Source: Gammaproteobacteria bacterium
Lineage (GTDB): Bacteria; Pseudomonadota; Gammaproteobacteria; UBA6429; Thiohalophilaceae
Reading direction: 5' to 3'
Assembly: GCA_022712915.1 (NCBI GenBank)
Contig: JAFLJQ010000087.1
Location: forward strand, 1-32,864
DNA length: 32,864 nt
Shown here one piece after another: positions 25,610 to 32,864 of this stretch. Under the pieces are notes generated by a model that was not told the origin of the DNA, did no database searches, and saw nothing but the letters and a program-made list of their open reading frames with translations. Position numbers and translations under genes: made by a program. Each line of letters begins with the position of its first letter. The first letter of the stretch is position 1.

Positions 25610-26536
25610 ATGCCTGGCGCATATGCACATATCACAATAGTTAACCTGCTTCGGGAGCCTGCACGGCTAGAAGGTCTTCCGAATTTTCCATTCGAAATAA
25701 TTCCTTATATATTACAAAATTTTAAGTACTGTGAATTAGGTACAGTAAGTCCTGACTACCCCTATCTGGCAATAAGTAATAGAGGTGCTGAGGCCTGGGC
25801 TGATGTAATGCATTCTATACATACGTTAGAAATGATACAGTCAGGGATAAAATATATTCGTGAAATAAGTGATGAATATGCACGAGGTAAGTGTATTGCC
25901 TGGTTACTCGGATATGCCGCGCATGTTGTGGCGGATGTTACGATTCATCCAATTGTTGAGCTTAAAGTCGGCCCATATGAAGAGAATAAAACGGCGCATA
26001 GGGTTTGTGAAATGAACCAGGATGCATATATATTTATGAGATTAAAGCTTGGTGCTATCGGATTAAGTGAACATTTAGATAGTGGTATTTGTGCCTGTGG
26101 GAATGATGTCGGAAAACTGGATTCGGATATAAAGTCATTATGGAGCGCAATGTTGAATGATGTTTATACTTCTATGGTTCAACATAATCCGCCCGATTTG
26201 GATGGCTGGCATTCTGGTTTTAAGGCGGTTGTCGATAATATTGCGGAAGAGGGGTATAGGTTTATACCACTAGCTAGACATGTAGCGGTTAATGCTGGAC
26301 TCACCTATCCGTCAGAAGAGAATATTGATTATCAATATATTACAAATTTAAAAACGCCAACAGGTGTTGATAATTACGATACCATCTTTGACGTAGCCGT
26401 AGAAAATGTTGGTGCTATTTGGACAGAGATTGCAAATGCCTTAATTGAGTTTAAACATCCAATGCAAAAATTAGCTGGGAATTGGAATCTGGATACGGGT
26501 AAAGATGAAACAGGGAAATTAGTATTCTGGAGTTAA
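25610..26536 (+). CDS. Zinc-dependent phospholipase C-like family protein
   Basis: A 308-residue protein matching the zinc-dependent phospholipase C family (PF00882). It opens 'MPGAYAHITIVNLL', whose histidine is the first metal ligand type. 'CELGTVSPDYPYL' carries the conserved Pro-Asp-Tyr, and 'AWLLGYAAHVVADVTIHPIVE' has the histidine/aspartate pair typical of the metal site. Bacterial members without a signal peptide are of unconfirmed substrate, so lipase activity is only a family-level inference. A strong AAGGAGG lies six bases before ATG 25610. It forms a likely two-gene operon with the lipoprotein gene four bases downstream. Confidence 0.82.
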   Translation: MPGAYAHITIVNLLREPARLEGLPNFPFEIIPYILQNFKYCELGTVSPDYPYLAISNRGAEAWADVMHSIHTLEMIQSGIKYIREISDEYARGKCIAWLLGYAAHVVADVTIHPIVELKVGPYEENKTAHRVCEMNQDAYIFMRLKLGAIGLSEHLDSGICACGNDVGKLDSDIKSLWSAMLNDVYTSMVQHNPPDLDGWHSGFKAVVDNIAEEGYRFIPLARHVAVNAGLTYPSEENIDYQYITNLKTPTGVDNYDTIFDVAVENVGAIWTEIANALIEFKHPMQKLAGNWNLDTGKDETGKLVFWS

Positions 26537-26540
26537 TACA

Positions 26541-26957
26541 ATGAAATATACTAAAGTCTATCTTATAGTCACTATTTTTGTGCTTGGCGGGTGCTCATTT
26601 AACCTCGTTGAGGATGATACAAAATATTATCAACTGGCTTCTGCATTAACAAAATTAAGCTCGGCAGTGGAGGCGACCGTCCGTTATAAAAAAATTCCTG
26701 ATGGTGCAACATCAGATAAGATCGTTGAGTTATCGATTGCGCATGATAAAAGCTTATTGACACCCTTTAGTGACTATAAAATAAAAATATATGTTGAGGC
26801 TCGTCATGCTATTGTGTTGGTTTGTAATGCTGCCGTCACTGAAGCATACTTGGAAGATGCAGGTTGTAGTGCGGAACTAGATCGACATCATTGGAAAACA
26901 GAGGTGATAGAACCGTGCGCAGCAACATTAAATTTAACTCAGGTGTGTGAGAAATAA
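26541..26957 (+). CDS. Small lipoprotein of unknown function
   Basis: A 138-residue protein with a lipoprotein signal 'VYLIVTIFVLGGC', C18 being the probable acylated cysteine, followed by S (not D) at +2, so outer-membrane sorting is expected. The mature part has a helical 'YYQLASALTKLSSAVEATVRY' segment and four further cysteines towards the C-terminus that could pair. It starts four bases after the phospholipase-like gene, with GGAG in that gene's last codons, so both are probably co-transcribed. No family was recognised. Confidence 0.8.
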   Translation: MKYTKVYLIVTIFVLGGCSFNLVEDDTKYYQLASALTKLSSAVEATVRYKKIPDGATSDKIVELSIAHDKSLLTPFSDYKIKIYVEARHAIVLVCNAAVTEAYLEDAGCSAELDRHHWKTEVIEPCAATLNLTQVCEK

Positions 26958-27188: not shown

Positions 27189-27800
27189 CCGTGAAAAAAC
27201 AATGAGACCGAGTGTGGGTGTGGGGATGGCTTTATTTTTGAAGTTAGGAATAGATGAAAAACAACACTGCTCATCCTGGTCCCCGCCATTTTGTGATGAA
27301 AGCATTCCCTCCTAATACATTTAAGCCCACAAACAGTGGATAATGAAGAACACGTGTAAGTTTGGTCTCAGATCAAAACGACCTATTCAGAATATATTCA
27401 CTTCGACATTGAGTTACCGCCATCAAGTGTGATCGTTATAGCATTTATAGTGTATAGGGAATTGCTTATAGTAAGTGCCATTCGGGACTGTACTTCTCAT
27501 TCCTGACCTCTTTTTAGATTCCTTAATACCTGAGTAATTAACATGGTTATTTCCTCTTTTTGTCCTAATTTTGGTGATTTACTGACCATTGATAAATCAG
27601 GCCGTATATGAGTTTAGCCCCCATCTTTATTGATAACCCATTGTTTTAATAGTTATTGTTTAATATGGCCTCAGTTTCAGGTCCTGATTATTTTTACAAA
27701 GATTAACAAAAAAGACTATTTTCTTGAAAATCACGGCTTATACGCCATACTGTTTGTGTGGCTTAATAAGGGAGTTATGTTTATGATAAAGGATCGTCAA
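27189..27800 (+). other. Long leader/intergenic region upstream of the giant cytochrome gene
   Basis: About 600 AT-rich bases with no supported gene. A weak promoter-like TTGAAA (27724-27729) stands about 18 bases before TACTGT. Two in-frame ATGs (27777 and 27783) precede the preferred start at 27801; GGGAG upstream of 27777 is poorly spaced for it. I looked for a c-di-GMP (GEMM) riboswitch, because such elements precede some multiheme genes, and saw none. Confidence 0.4.
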
Positions 27801-30800
27801 ATGATTATATTGAGCCATAGTCAAATAGGGCATCTGTCTAAGTTTGTTTCTATTTTAGGCCGTCTGCCTGAGGTGGGGTTACTGGTATTTTTATTATTAT
27901 TTATCAGTGCCTGTTCCGATGTGAAAAAAAGTGAGACAACGGCGATGACTAAAACATCGCTGGATACAGAGATAAAGCGCTCTAATCACACAGGTAAATA
28001 CCATTATGTTGAGGGCTGCGCCACCTGCCATGATGTCACGGGTAATTCCACTAATGTTTCATTAATCCGACATGTTATTGAAACCCCAAATAGCGGTTCT
28101 AAACCTGTGGTCTTCACCTCTCGCACGGGCAGCAATTCCTTTGCGGATGGGGATGTGACTTACAATGGCGTCTGTGAGGTCTGTCATACCATAAACGCAC
28201 ACCATAATAACGATGGCCATGATTTAACTGCCCACAATGACGGTGCAGTTTGTACGCAATGTCATATACATGATCAGCAGTTTGCTGCGCCTACTATACC
28301 CTATACACAATCTCACCAAACCCATTTGAACTCCAAACATGTCAGTGGCATGGGGATTGTGTGTACGACTTGTCATAGCAATTCTGATTACCGGGTATTT
28401 GCTGATATGCAGCCGCTGGAGACGACGACGGTGTGCGATACCTGCCATAGTCCGGATGGGACGTATCCCGGTGTAAATGGCTTATTGAATACGACTCTGG
28501 GTGCCAAGGCCAACTATAAAACTGGCGGTATGTATGAGGCGGATGGCATAAGCTTGCAAGCAGGTAAAGAAAAGTGGTGTGCCTCCTGTCATGATGAAGT
28601 GCCTTCCGTGATTAATGGTGCAACGGCTCCGATTGCCATAGTTGGCATTAGTGCTGAGTACCATAATGTGACGGGTTGTCAGACTTGCCATGATGTCTCA
28701 GGTGCTGCCACCAATCTGAAATTAATTCAGAGTGTCATTAACACGCCAAATAGTGGAGCCAAGCCGGTCACCTTTACCGCGCTTACAGGTACTAATTCCT
28801 TTGCCGATGGGGATGCGACTTACGATGGCCCCTGTGAGGTCTGTCATACTATGACTGGGCACCACCAAAACAATGGTGCTGATGCTACAGCCCATAATGA
28901 CGGTGCGACCTGTACCTCATGTCATACACATGATCAGCAGTTTGCAGCGCCGGCTTTACCTTATACACAATCTCACCAAACCCATTTGAACTCCAAGCAT
29001 GTCAGTGGCATGGGCTTTGTGTGCACAACTTGTCATAGTGCGGGAGATCCTCTTGTTTTTGCGGACATGCAGCCGCTGGCGACGACGACGGTGTGTGATA
29101 TCTGCCACAGTCCAGGCGGGATCTACCCCGGGGCCGGTGGTTTGATGAATGTAACGCTGGGCGCTAAGGCCAATTATAAGACCGGTGGCATTTATGAGGC
29201 GGATGGCGTGACTCTGAAAGCGGGTAAAGAAAAATGGTGTGCCTCCTGCCATGATGAATCGCCTTCTGTGATTAATGGTGCAACGGCTCCTATCGCCATG
29301 GTGGGTGTCAGCGCGGATTACCATCATGTGACGGGTTGTCAAACTTGTCATGATAGCTCAGGCAATTCCACCAACCTGAAATTAATTCAGGATGTCATTG
29401 CGACACCCAATAGCGGTAATAAGCTTGTTATATTTACGGCTCTCACCGGTACGAACTCTTTAGCCGATGGGGATGCCACTTATAACGGTGCTTGTGAAGT
29501 CTGTCATACCGTAAACGCACACCATAATAATGATGGGCATGATAATTCTCTTCATATGGATGGTGCGACCTGTACGTCATGTCATACGCATGATCAGCAG
29601 TTTGCGGCACCGACTTTGCTCTATACACAATCTCACCAGACTCATTTGAATTCCAAGCATGTGAACGGTATGAATTTTGACTGTACGACCTGTCATAACG
29701 ATCCCGTGGCTGATCCACTTGTTTTCGCGGACATGCAACCTTTGTCCACGACAACGGTTTGTGACACTTGCCACAGTCCAGGCGGGACCTACCCCGGGGC
29801 CGGTGGTTTGATGAATGCAACGCTGGGTGCCAAGGCTAATTATAAGACCGGTGGCATTTATGAGGCGGATGGCGTGACCCTGAAAGCAGGTAAAGAAAAC
29901 TGGTGTGCCTCTTGTCATGATGAATCACCTTCTGTGATCAATGGTGCAACGGCCCCTACTACGATGGTCGGTGTCAGTGCGCAGTATCATTATGTGACGG
30001 GCTGCCAGACTTGTCATGATGCCTCAGGTGGTGCCACTAACCTTTCAAACATAAAAAGTGTCATAACGACGCCGAACAGTGGCCTGAAGAGCGTCCTGTT
30101 TGCTGCCCTTACCGGTGCTAATTCCTTTGCGGATGGGGATGCGACTTACAATGGCGTCTGTGAGGTCTGTCATACTGTAAACGCACACCATAATAATGAT
30201 GGCCATGATAATACGGCTCATATGGACGGTGCGACCTGCACGTCATGTCACTCGCACTCGGGGCAGTTTGCCGCACCTGCTGTGCCCTATACACAAACTC
30301 ACCAAACCCATTTGAACTCCAAGCATGTTAGTGGCATGGGTTTTGTGTGTACAACCTGCCATAGTGACTCAGACTTCCTGCTGTTTGCAGATATGCAGCC
30401 GCTGGCCACGACGACGGTGTGTGACACTTGCCACAGTCCGGGCGGGACGTATCCCGGGGCCGGTGGTTTATTGAATGCAACGCTGGGCGCCAAGGCTAAT
30501 TATAAGACCGGTGGCATTTATGAGGCAGATGGCGTGACCCTGAAAGCGGGTAAAGAAAAATGGTGTGCCTCCTGCCATGATGAATCGCCTTCTGTGATTA
30601 ATGGTGCAACGGCCCCTATTGCCATGGTGGGTGTCAGTGCGCAGTACCATCATGTAACGGGTTGTCAGACCTGTCATGATACTTCTGGTGGTGCTACTAA
30701 TCTGAAATTAGTTCAAAGTACCATTGCTACGCCAAATAGCGGCAATAAGCCTGTTATATTTACTGCTCTCACCGGTGCTAATTCTTTAGCCGATGGGGAT

Positions 30801-32864
30801 GCGACTTACAATGGTGCTTGTGAAGTCTGTCATACTGTCAACGCACACCATAATAATGATGGCCATGATAATACCGCTCATATGGATGGTGTGACCTGCA
30901 CATCATGTCATACGCATGATCAGCAGTTTGCGGCACCTGCTTTACCCTATACACAATCTCACCAAACCCATTTGAATTCCAAACATGTGAACGGTATGAA
31001 TTTTGACTGCACGACTTGTCATAACGATCCCATAGCCGATCCGCTTGTTTTCGCGGACATGCAGCCTCTGGCTACCACCGCTGTCTGCGGCACCTGCCAC
31101 AGTCCGGGAGGGACGTATCCTGGAACAGGCGGTTTACTGAACGCAACCCTGGGTGCCAAGGCCAATTATAAGACCGGTGGCATTTATGAGGCGGATGGCG
31201 TGACCCTGCAAGCAGGCAAAGAAAACTGGTGTGCCTCCTGTCATGATGAATCACCTTCTGTGATCAACGGCGCAACGGCCCCTATCGCGATGGTGGGTGT
31301 CAGTGCGCAATACCATCATGTGACCGGTTGTCAGACCTGTCATGATACTTCTGGCGGTGCGACTAACCTGAAATTAATTCAGAGTGTTATTGCTACGCCA
31401 AATAGTGGTTCTAAGGCAGTGACCTATACGGCACTCACCGGCACTAATTCCCTGGCTGATGGGGATGCGACTTATAACGGTGCTTGTGAAGTCTGTCATA
31501 CCGTAAATGCACACCATAATAATGATGGTCACGACAACACGACTCATATGGACGGTGCGACCTGTACCTCATGTCATTTACATTCAGGGCAGTTTGCTGC
31601 GCCGACCTTACCTTACTCCGAGTCTCACCAAACCCATTTGAATTCCAGGCATGTGGGCGGTATGAATTTTGACTGTACGACCTGTCACAATGATCCCATA
31701 GTCGATCCGCTTGTTTTTGCGGACATGCAGCCGCTGGCTACTACCACCGTATGTGATATCTGCCACAGTCCAGGTGGAACATATCCCGGAGCCGGTGGTT
31801 TGTTGAACACAACCCTGGGTGCCAAGGCCAACTTCAAAACGGGCGGCATGTATGAAGTAGATGGCGTGACTCTCAAAACGGGCAAAGAAGATTGGTGTGC
31901 TTCCTGTCATGATGAATCGCCTTCTGTGATCAATGGTGCAACGGCCCCCACTACGATGGTCGGTGTTAGTGCACAGTACCATTATGTGACGGGCTGCCAG
32001 ACCTGTCATGATGCATCAGGCAGTGCCACCAACCTGGCATTCATCAACAGTGTTATTAATACCCCGAACAGCGGGATGAAGAGTGTTGTGTTTACCTCAC
32101 TCGCCGGTCCTAATTCCTTTGCGGATGGGGATGCGACTTATAATGGTCCCTGTGAGGTCTGTCATACCACGACCGGACACCATCAAAACAATGGTGCTGA
32201 TGCTACGGCCCATAATGACGGTGCGACCTGTACGTCTTGTCATTTGCACTCGGAGCAGTTTACCGCGCCTGCTATGCCCTATACAGAGTCTCACAATACC
32301 CATATACAGTCAGATCTGACAAAGGGCCTTAGCCTTGTGTGCACGGACTGTCATAGCGGGGGAAGTTATCTCCTGTTTGCTGACATGCAGCCATTGGCCA
32401 CCACCACTGTGTGCGATACCTGCCACAGTCCCGGGGGAACCTATCCTGGGGTGAGTGGTTTACTGAATGCAACTTTGGGTGCCAAGGCCAACTACAAGAC
32501 CGGTGGCATGTATGAGGCGGATGGTGTGACCCTGAAAGCAGGCAAAGAAAAATGGTGCGCTACTTGCCATGATGAAGTGCCGTCTGTGATAAACGGCGTG
32601 TCGGCCCCTAAAGTGATCGGCGACGAAGGCGCATCTACGGCTTATGGGAAAGGTTACGGCTATTATAAATCTGGCCATGGCCTGCCAACTTCAGAGCGAT
32701 ATCCTGCCTCGCAGAGCGTCGGAGCCGGTATAGGTTGTTCGGATTGTCATAACGCATCCAAAAGGCATATTGACGGAAATGCTCGAACCTATGTGGCGGA
32801 GGGGGATTCTGATCCGATTAGCTCAAACTACCAGAATGGTTACCGTTTGAAGGATGTCGCGGGC
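27801..32864 (+). CDS. Giant multiheme c-type cytochrome lipoprotein, at least 43 hemes (runs off the window)
   Basis: An open frame of 1,688 codons with no stop before the window end. The lipoprotein signal ends 'LLLFISAC' with C38, the same position as in the decaheme paralogue. ATG 27801 has AAGGA seven bases upstream. There are 43 CXXCH motifs, all in frame: seven tandem modules of six hemes (first cysteine at residues 73, 293, 513, 735, 955, 1177 and 1399), then CSDCH at 1646 in the C-terminal region shared with the paralogue ('GHGLPTSERYPASQSVGAG', 'KRHIDGNARTY'). Each module reads C(A/Q)TCH, CEVCH, CT(Q/S)CH, CT(T/D)CH, C(D/G)xCH, CA(S/T)CH and is rich in extra histidines for axial ligation. 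By homology about 450 residues and three hemes lie beyond the window. Likely an outer-surface electron conduit. The minus-strand frames here are shadows. Confidence 0.93.
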   Translation, partial: MIILSHSQIGHLSKFVSILGRLPEVGLLVFLLLFISACSDVKKSETTAMTKTSLDTEIKRSNHTGKYHYVEGCATCHDVTGNSTNVSLIRHVIETPNSGSKPVVFTSRTGSNSFADGDVTYNGVCEVCHTINAHHNNDGHDLTAHNDGAVCTQCHIHDQQFAAPTIPYTQSHQTHLNSKHVSGMGIVCTTCHSNSDYRVFADMQPLETTTVCDTCHSPDGTYPGVNGLLNTTLGAKANYKTGGMYEADGISLQAGKEKWCASCHDEVPSVINGATAPIAIVGISAEYHNVTGCQTCHDVSGAATNLKLIQSVINTPNSGAKPVTFTALTGTNSFADGDATYDGPCEVCHTMTGHHQNNGADATAHNDGATCTSCHTHDQQFAAPALPYTQSHQTHLNSKHVSGMGFVCTTCHSAGDPLVFADMQPLATTTVCDICHSPGGIYPGAGGLMNVTLGAKANYKTGGIYEADGVTLKAGKEKWCASCHDESPSVINGATAPIAMVGVSADYHHVTGCQTCHDSSGNSTNLKLIQDVIATPNSGNKLVIFTALTGTNSLADGDATYNGACEVCHTVNAHHNNDGHDNSLHMDGATCTSCHTHDQQFAAPTLLYTQSHQTHLNSKHVNGMNFDCTTCHNDPVADPLVFADMQPLSTTTVCDTCHSPGGTYPGAGGLMNATLGAKANYKTGGIYEADGVTLKAGKENWCASCHDESPSVINGATAPTTMVGVSAQYHYVTGCQTCHDASGGATNLSNIKSVITTPNSGLKSVLFAALTGANSFADGDATYNGVCEVCHTVNAHHNNDGHDNTAHMDGATCTSCHSHSGQFAAPAVPYTQTHQTHLNSKHVSGMGFVCTTCHSDSDFLLFADMQPLATTTVCDTCHSPGGTYPGAGGLLNATLGAKANYKTGGIYEADGVTLKAGKEKWCASCHDESPSVINGATAPIAMVGVSAQYHHVTGCQTCHDTSGGATNLKLVQSTIATPNSGNKPVIFTALTGANSLADGDATYNGACEVCHTVNAHHNNDGHDNTAHMDGVTCTSCHTHDQQFAAPALPYTQSHQTHLNSKHVNGMNFDCTTCHNDPIADPLVFADMQPLATTAVCGTCHSPGGTYPGTGGLLNATLGAKANYKTGGIYEADGVTLQAGKENWCASCHDESPSVINGATAPIAMVGVSAQYHHVTGCQTCHDTSGGATNLKLIQSVIATPNSGSKAVTYTALTGTNSLADGDATYNGACEVCHTVNAHHNNDGHDNTTHMDGATCTSCHLHSGQFAAPTLPYSESHQTHLNSRHVGGMNFDCTTCHNDPIVDPLVFADMQPLATTTVCDICHSPGGTYPGAGGLLNTTLGAKANFKTGGMYEVDGVTLKTGKEDWCASCHDESPSVINGATAPTTMVGVSAQYHYVTGCQTCHDASGSATNLAFINSVINTPNSGMKSVVFTSLAGPNSFADGDATYNGPCEVCHTTTGHHQNNGADATAHNDGATCTSCHLHSEQFTAPAMPYTESHNTHIQSDLTKGLSLVCTDCHSGGSYLLFADMQPLATTTVCDTCHSPGGTYPGVSGLLNATLGAKANYKTGGMYEADGVTLKAGKEKWCATCHDEVPSVINGVSAPKVIGDEGASTAYGKGYGYYKSGHGLPTSERYPASQSVGAGIGCSDCHNASKRHIDGNARTYVAEGDSDPISSNYQNGYRLKDVAG
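28017..32660 (+). repeat. Seven tandem 660/666-bp coding repeats (six-heme modules)
   Basis: Module starts, taken at the first heme cysteine codon, are 28017, 28677, 29337, 30003, 30663, 31329 and 31995. The spacings are 660, 660, 666, 660, 666 and 666 bases, always a multiple of three. Modules 3, 5 and 6 carry 'MNFDCTTCHNDP', with two extra residues. Modules 1, 2 and 4 carry the shorter 'MG(I/F)VCTTCHS' form. Modules 2 and 7 share 'TGHHQNNGADATAHNDG' instead of 'NAHHNNDGHD'. Nucleotide similarity is high over long blocks, so the modules probably arose by recent duplication with recombination between them. Confidence 0.95.

Follow-up and report, generated by a model that had tools for sequence, protein, structure and literature searches.

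Filaments of OmcS, OmcE and OmcZ are non-covalent polymers of 4-, 6- or 8-heme subunits. Giant tandem multiheme cytochromes are also already known as a kind. The PCC3 extracellular cytochromes carry 34 hemes in the median and as many as 85, contain repeats and reside on the Gram-negative outer surface, including that of marine gammaproteobacteria such as tubeworm symbionts (He et al., 2017, PMC5566968). For the ANME S-layer giant cytochromes, which have 20 to 86 hemes per protein, a role in electron transport through the cell surface has been proposed (Chadwick et al., 2022, PMC9012536). In Geobacter, the tandem c7 nanowires comprise GSU1996 with 12 hemes, whose structure is known, and GSU2210 with 27 hemes (PMC10138318). 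Here, we analyzed a 32,864-nucleotide stretch of DNA (the window), one end of which encodes a giant cytochrome composed of seven six-heme modules. In the literature searched, we found no description of this hexaheme module, of its lipoprotein setting or of the ladder from one to seven modules present within one genome. The host is an uncultured sulfur-cycling bacterium. Its 4.24 Mb genome (97.8% complete) encodes a DsrA scoring above its cut-off, Ccm genes and many multiheme cytochromes, and its HrpA (with DUF3418) is 51 to 53% identical to HrpA of Sedimenticolaceae and other gammaproteobacterial MAGs. Judging from this HrpA and from the nearest relatives of its cytochromes, the host is probably a gammaproteobacterium.

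Reading frame and seven-module array

A preliminary description of the window had reported an uninterrupted frame with 43 in-frame CXXCH motifs starting at ATG 27801. Our recount gave the same result, as the frame translates into 1688 codons without a stop from ATG 27801 to position 32864 and holds 43 motifs. In shuffled versions of the protein (n = 500), CXXCH occurred 0.34 times on average and three times at most. Having 43 such motifs behind a signal peptide, the product has the sequence features of a c-type multiheme cytochrome, namely several CXXCH motifs in an exported protein. ATG 27801 is in frame, but ATG 27777, located eight residues upstream and behind AAGGGAG, is the better start (Table 1). 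The proposed outer-membrane-type lipoprotein signal was likewise recovered: the signal peptide ends in the lipobox ISAC, the lipidated Cys is encoded at 27912-27914 and Ser occupies position +2, such that the protein combines a lipobox with a non-Asp +2 residue, as outer-membrane lipoproteins do. According to the established Lol +2 rule, Ser at this position leads one to expect outer-membrane sorting, the rule making no prediction about the face of the membrane. Cys38 of the lipobox is the sole cysteine outside the CXXCH motifs.

Table 1. Features of the giant cytochrome gene and its complete paralogue in the window
Feature	Coordinates	Strand	Basis or description
Complete paralogue P0002	22068..24605	-	lipoprotein signal (TGAC), one six-heme module, four tail hemes (10 in all), C-terminal beta domains (weak Ig-like match)
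Shine-Dalgarno-like AAGGGAGTT directly 5' of ATG 27777	27768..27776	+	direct reading; consensus only
Giant multiheme cytochrome gene	27777..32864	+	start ATG 27777, ATG 27801 in same frame; open at contig end
Lipoprotein signal peptide with lipobox ISAC at its end	27777..27914	+	sequence
Module 1, N-terminal cap type, 6 hemes	27999..28658	+	motif spacing; groups with C170 paralogue module 1 (90/92)
Module 2, 6 hemes	28659..29318	+	motif spacing
Module 3, 6 hemes	29319..29984	+	motif spacing
Module 4, 6 hemes	29985..30644	+	motif spacing
Module 5, 6 hemes	30645..31310	+	motif spacing
Module 6, 6 hemes	31311..31976	+	motif spacing
Module 7, C-terminal cap type, 6 hemes	31977..32636	+	groups with C170 paralogue last module (100/100)
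C-terminal tail, first part, heme 43	32637..32864	+	alignment to P0002, L046, L047

Motif spacing also reproduced the seven six-heme repeats of 220 or 222 residues claimed earlier. The CXXCH motifs follow each other at intervals of 52, 26, 37, 24 or 26, 48 and 33 residues, a pattern repeated seven times, with 60 replacing 33 before motif 43. Modules 1 to 7 measure 220, 220, 222, 220, 222, 222 and about 220 residues and contain six motifs each, one further motif lying in the tail. There are about 38 residues per heme. Protein identity among the seven modules ranges from 68 to 90%. Pairwise comparison yielded dS values of about 0.6 to 1.7 and dN/dS ratios of 0.06 to 0.25. No exact repeat within the gene exceeds 74 nt, a length below that of ordinary reads. 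The modules of the array are old and under strong purifying selection. Together, the synonymous divergence, the strong purifying selection and the short exact repeat make an assembly artefact unlikely; on the divergence and the 74-nt repeat, we rejected a very recent tandem duplication or an assembly collapse.

As described previously, the frame is open at the end of the window. Because contig C115 itself stops there, at position 32864, it is the assembly, and not merely the window, that truncates the gene. A whole-protein search of the bin for the missing 3' part, with the neighboring P0002 as query, returned paralogues only, and the four paralogue contigs compared with the window end showed no overlap with it. 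Module 7 and the tail are 66% identical to P0002 and 58 to 61% identical to complete relatives from Sedimenticola (L046, 61%) and Ca. Thiodiazotropha (L047, 58%). Beyond the point where the contig stops, all three of these single-module proteins have exactly three more hemes, followed by beta domains. By homology, the full giant protein would thus comprise about 46 hemes and about 2,150 residues, close to the earlier projection of about 46 hemes and about 2,100 residues; 43 hemes are seen in the sequence, while the final ~450 residues are projected. Of note, the region between the two cytochrome genes (25610-26957, plus strand) encodes a zinc-dependent phospholipase C-like protein and a small lipoprotein-like protein, which have no evident tie to electron transfer.

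Anatomy and distribution of the hexaheme module

Every module in the window contains extra His residues at module positions 2, 69, 79, 91, 106 and 109. Among relatives, with 19 to 43 sequences covering each site, these residues are conserved at a frequency of at least 0.97, except for His69 (0.74). Six near-invariant extra His residues are enough for six hemes, which fits bis-His ligation of all six. Judged by this conservation, all six hemes of each module are probably bis-His ligated. The heme-to-heme sequence gap across a module border is 33 residues and lies inside the intramodule range of 24 to 52. The borders of the giant protein have no Pro/Thr linker, and its inner borders are well conserved.

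Profile searches related distinct parts of the module to known families. The Pfam model Cytochrome_C7 (PF14522) scored the whole giant protein at 160.8 bits against a curated cut-off of 24.8, with no single stretch passing the E-value limit alone. The module part containing hemes 4 and 5 resembles c7 cytochromes, and the N-terminal part bears the signature NSFADGD...CEVCHT, for which Pfam and NCBIfam searches returned no dedicated model. When run against the PDB, a broad module profile matched the crystallised 12-heme nanowire GSU1996 (3ov0, E 1e-9), such matches being driven partly by CXXCH itself. For OmcS, OmcE and OmcZ, a narrow profile gave no match and the broad profile gave a weak one at best (OmcS, 1e-4). 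The nanowire_3heme model matched only 5 of the 43 module relatives and did not match module 3. AlphaFold2 models of two modules and of one module were poor (pLDDT 49.6 and 49.5). Scores far below the cut-offs rejected membership in the OmcA/MtrC family (TIGR03507, 21.6 vs 209.3 bits) and in the DmsE/MtrA decaheme family (TIGR03508, 55.6 vs 192.2 bits). Identity with the GSU1996 type, tandem triheme c7 domains with one His/Met heme each, was rejected on account of the six motifs and six near-invariant extra His residues per module.

Relatives are encoded in 156 stretches of the named genome collection, and 78 loci were kept. Their hosts are Gammaproteobacteria, Desulfobacterota, Nitrospirota, Bacteroidota, Krumholzibacteriota, Planctomycetota, Methanosarcinaceae (ANME-type) archaea and others. 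Most relatives have one module; two or more copies were present in 8 of 81 signature-bearing proteins. The largest of these is a complete 46-heme protein from a Krumholzibacteriota MAG, whose gene (L096:9806-15571) has neighbors encoding 13-, 14- and 13-heme proteins. In another Krumholzibacteriota MAG (L076), a 41-heme protein with a spacing of ~24 residues adjoins a 22-heme modular protein. Nitrospiraceae SURF_66 (L108:4395-11972) encodes a 2,526-residue protein with 43 hemes, whose five-heme repeat (28, 28, 20, 37, 47) is related to this signature. The module was not detected in 57 relatives of the host, two of the same genus included, and among 369 sampled genomes of its class, only one other gave a match at E 1e-20. 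Vertical inheritance in the genus was rejected on these counts, and the rarity of the module within the class fits horizontal gain or frequent loss. Neither viral contigs nor plasmids yielded a relative. The hexaheme module is uncatalogued and widely spread, with generic cytochrome models catching its members mainly via CXXCH.

Paralogues and other cytochromes of the host

Within the host genome, the family occurs with one, two, three and seven modules. In addition to P0002, contig C170 contains a complete 1,357-residue ORF with three modules and 22 hemes, adjoining a divergent 10-heme copy. A two-module 12-heme paralogue is located on C262 and a 10-heme paralogue on C264, while further copies on C136, C264 and C22 are fragmentary or disrupted. 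Lipoboxes are present in the giant and in the full-length paralogues. Golvesin_C and Ig-like domains occur at the C-termini of paralogues and suggest life at the cell surface. In a module tree, the first module of the giant grouped with the first of C170 (90/92) and its last module with the last of C170 (100/100), whereas the inner modules mostly did not resolve. This topology suggests conserved cap modules flanking a variable number of inner copies, and it would place the divergence of the two arrays after the caps had already come to differ from the inner modules.

The 10-, 12-, 22- and ~46-heme paralogues differ mainly in module count. We tentatively propose that this one genome encodes graded covalent heme wires, assembled from one, two, three or seven copies of the same hexaheme module with conserved first and last caps, in which module number may set the reach or the capacity of a surface conduit. 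Related ADGD...CEVCHT arrays in other phyla may then reflect repeated lengthening of one unnamed module family. Given covalent chains of set module number, the length dependence of heme-wire conduction would be measurable within one family.

The host encodes further multiheme proteins of other types. A second giant (C150:17306-20641; L154:9306-12641, minus strand) has 45 CXXCH motifs, in most cases 23 to 24 residues apart, and differs in type from the seven-module giant. An 8-heme fragment close to the end of the contig precedes its gene, and the gene of a 667-residue protein whose C-terminus is barrel-like follows it; the locus looks like a PCC3-like porin-cytochrome cluster. Relatives of this 45-heme protein occur in shorter frames in the two other genomes of the genus. 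Contig C30 (L155:1684-12742, L156) bears a large cluster of 18-, 3-, 7-, 3-, 6- and 8-heme proteins with membrane proteins between them, and Ccm maturation genes are on this same contig. A cluster on C261 (L158:3702-18266) encodes 12-, 3-, 7-, 6-, 8-, 7- and 8-heme proteins. Among its products are a lipoprotein-like cytochrome bearing an MtrC-like domain and a 422-residue protein that may form a barrel, and the cluster is possibly a separate outer-membrane conduit.

Proposed role and relation to known cytochromes

On balance, we think it likely that the giant protein is a surface heme wire of covalently linked modules. The observations pointing to this role are the open reading frame with its motifs and modules, the lipobox, the purifying selection, the length ladder of the paralogues and the conserved extra His residues. 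The linker-free module borders, the Cytochrome_C7 and 3ov0 matches, the number of residues per heme, the C-terminal domains of paralogues and the presence of Ccm genes also speak for it. In the proposed wire, an outer-membrane lipoprotein anchor would be followed by the seven covalently joined hexaheme c-type modules, the four-heme tail and then beta domains. If fully loaded with heme and exposed at the surface, the modules would conduct electrons through an unbroken series of tightly packed, low-spin bis-His hemes. This chain would take up electrons from a donor in the periplasm or outer membrane and hand them on to an acceptor, be it a mineral, a partner cell or another cytochrome, at a distance of probably tens of nanometres from the membrane. 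Reach would be set by module number, and the large number of hemes should make the protein an electron store as well. Against this reading, no porin gene is evident beside the giant gene, on its upstream side in the window, or next to the C170 and C262 paralogues. A search for MtrB/PioB porins gave no match, but a control search was equally without a match, so that this result does not speak for the absence of such porins.

Storage might also be the main function, the many hemes mainly holding electrons when acceptors are absent instead of carrying a long-distance current. We regard this as a less likely but serious option, since the central module region is GSU1996-like and such a capacitor role has been suggested in Geobacter for GSU1996 and GSU2210, two tandem cytochromes of the periplasm (PMC10138318); moreover, ~46 hemes per chain add capacity under any geometry. 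However, GSU1996 is periplasmic, whereas the giant has an outer-membrane-type lipoprotein signal and its paralogues have surface-type beta domains. Rather unlikely, in our assessment, are folded hexaheme modules that swing like beads on a string and exchange electrons by tethered collision, with no fixed inter-module heme chain. PgcA sets a precedent for this arrangement (PMC11520253) and the repeats are discrete and self-contained, each with a full set of conserved His residues, but low-complexity linkers are missing, the border gap is of intramodule length and the inner borders are well conserved. Very improbable is a terminal metal or oxyanion reductase, or a mineral-binding enzyme, with modules multiplied for avidity and not for conduction. 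Multiheme surface reductases do exist, and binding would be a conceivable role for those single-module paralogues that have Golvesin_C and Ig-like domains; however, with one conserved extra His retained for each heme in all modules, no open (five-coordinate) heme site is evident. Finally, although the contig ends inside the gene and some of the related fragments on C136, C264 and C22 are disrupted copies, an assembly expansion or a decaying gene is hardly credible given the module divergence, the dN/dS ratios and the short longest repeat, with 43 of 43 motifs intact and no stop.

Returning to the surface heme wire as the favored reading, its size is large, as had been stressed before, yet no record, considering the 85 hemes of PCC3, the 86 of ANME and the 46 of the Krumholzibacteriota protein; nor is it the sole giant of its genome, which also encodes the 45-heme C150 protein. 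Like the PCC3 cytochromes, the giant has very many hemes per chain, internal repeats and few residues per heme. It lies within the PCC3 range of 22 to 39 residues per heme with heme-bearing repeats, though at the upper end compared to the PCC3 median of 26. Unlike in PCC3, its repeat is a 220-residue six-heme module, and whereas PCC3 genes cluster as porin, extracellular cytochrome, periplasmic cytochrome and inner-membrane protein, no porin is evident beside the giant gene on the upstream side, the only side covered. The ANME giants differ in being archaeal and in having S-layer and transmembrane domains, and the available excerpt of their description reports no tandem hexaheme module (PMC9012536). 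With GSU1996, the giant shares covalent tandem heme domains and a c7-like central module region that aligns with 3ov0, but GSU1996 is a periplasmic protein of triheme domains with one His/Met heme each, whereas the giant is a lipoprotein of hexaheme modules, probably all bis-His. PgcA has tethered domains (PMC11520253), in contrast to the linker-free giant. The OmcS, OmcE and OmcZ filaments, like the proposed wire, are long chains of packed hemes, but they share no clear sequence relationship with the module.

Closest in sequence terms are proteins sharing the module itself. Those of Sedimenticola (L046) and Ca. Thiodiazotropha (L047 to L049) have the same module as the giant and the four-heme tail and beta domains that are projected for it, but only one module and 10 hemes each in place of seven modules; the Thiodiazotropha copies have ordinary signal-like N-termini with no clear lipobox. 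The Krumholzibacteriota protein (L096, JAJRWA010000004.1; complete ORF of 1,922 residues, modules 54 to 77% identical) differs in its spacing (52, 26, 17, 49, 42, 36), in a block interrupting the array midway, in its C-terminus and in its ordinary signal peptide with no clear lipobox, but like the giant it is built from ~222-residue six-heme modules carrying the NSFADGD...CEVCHT signature.
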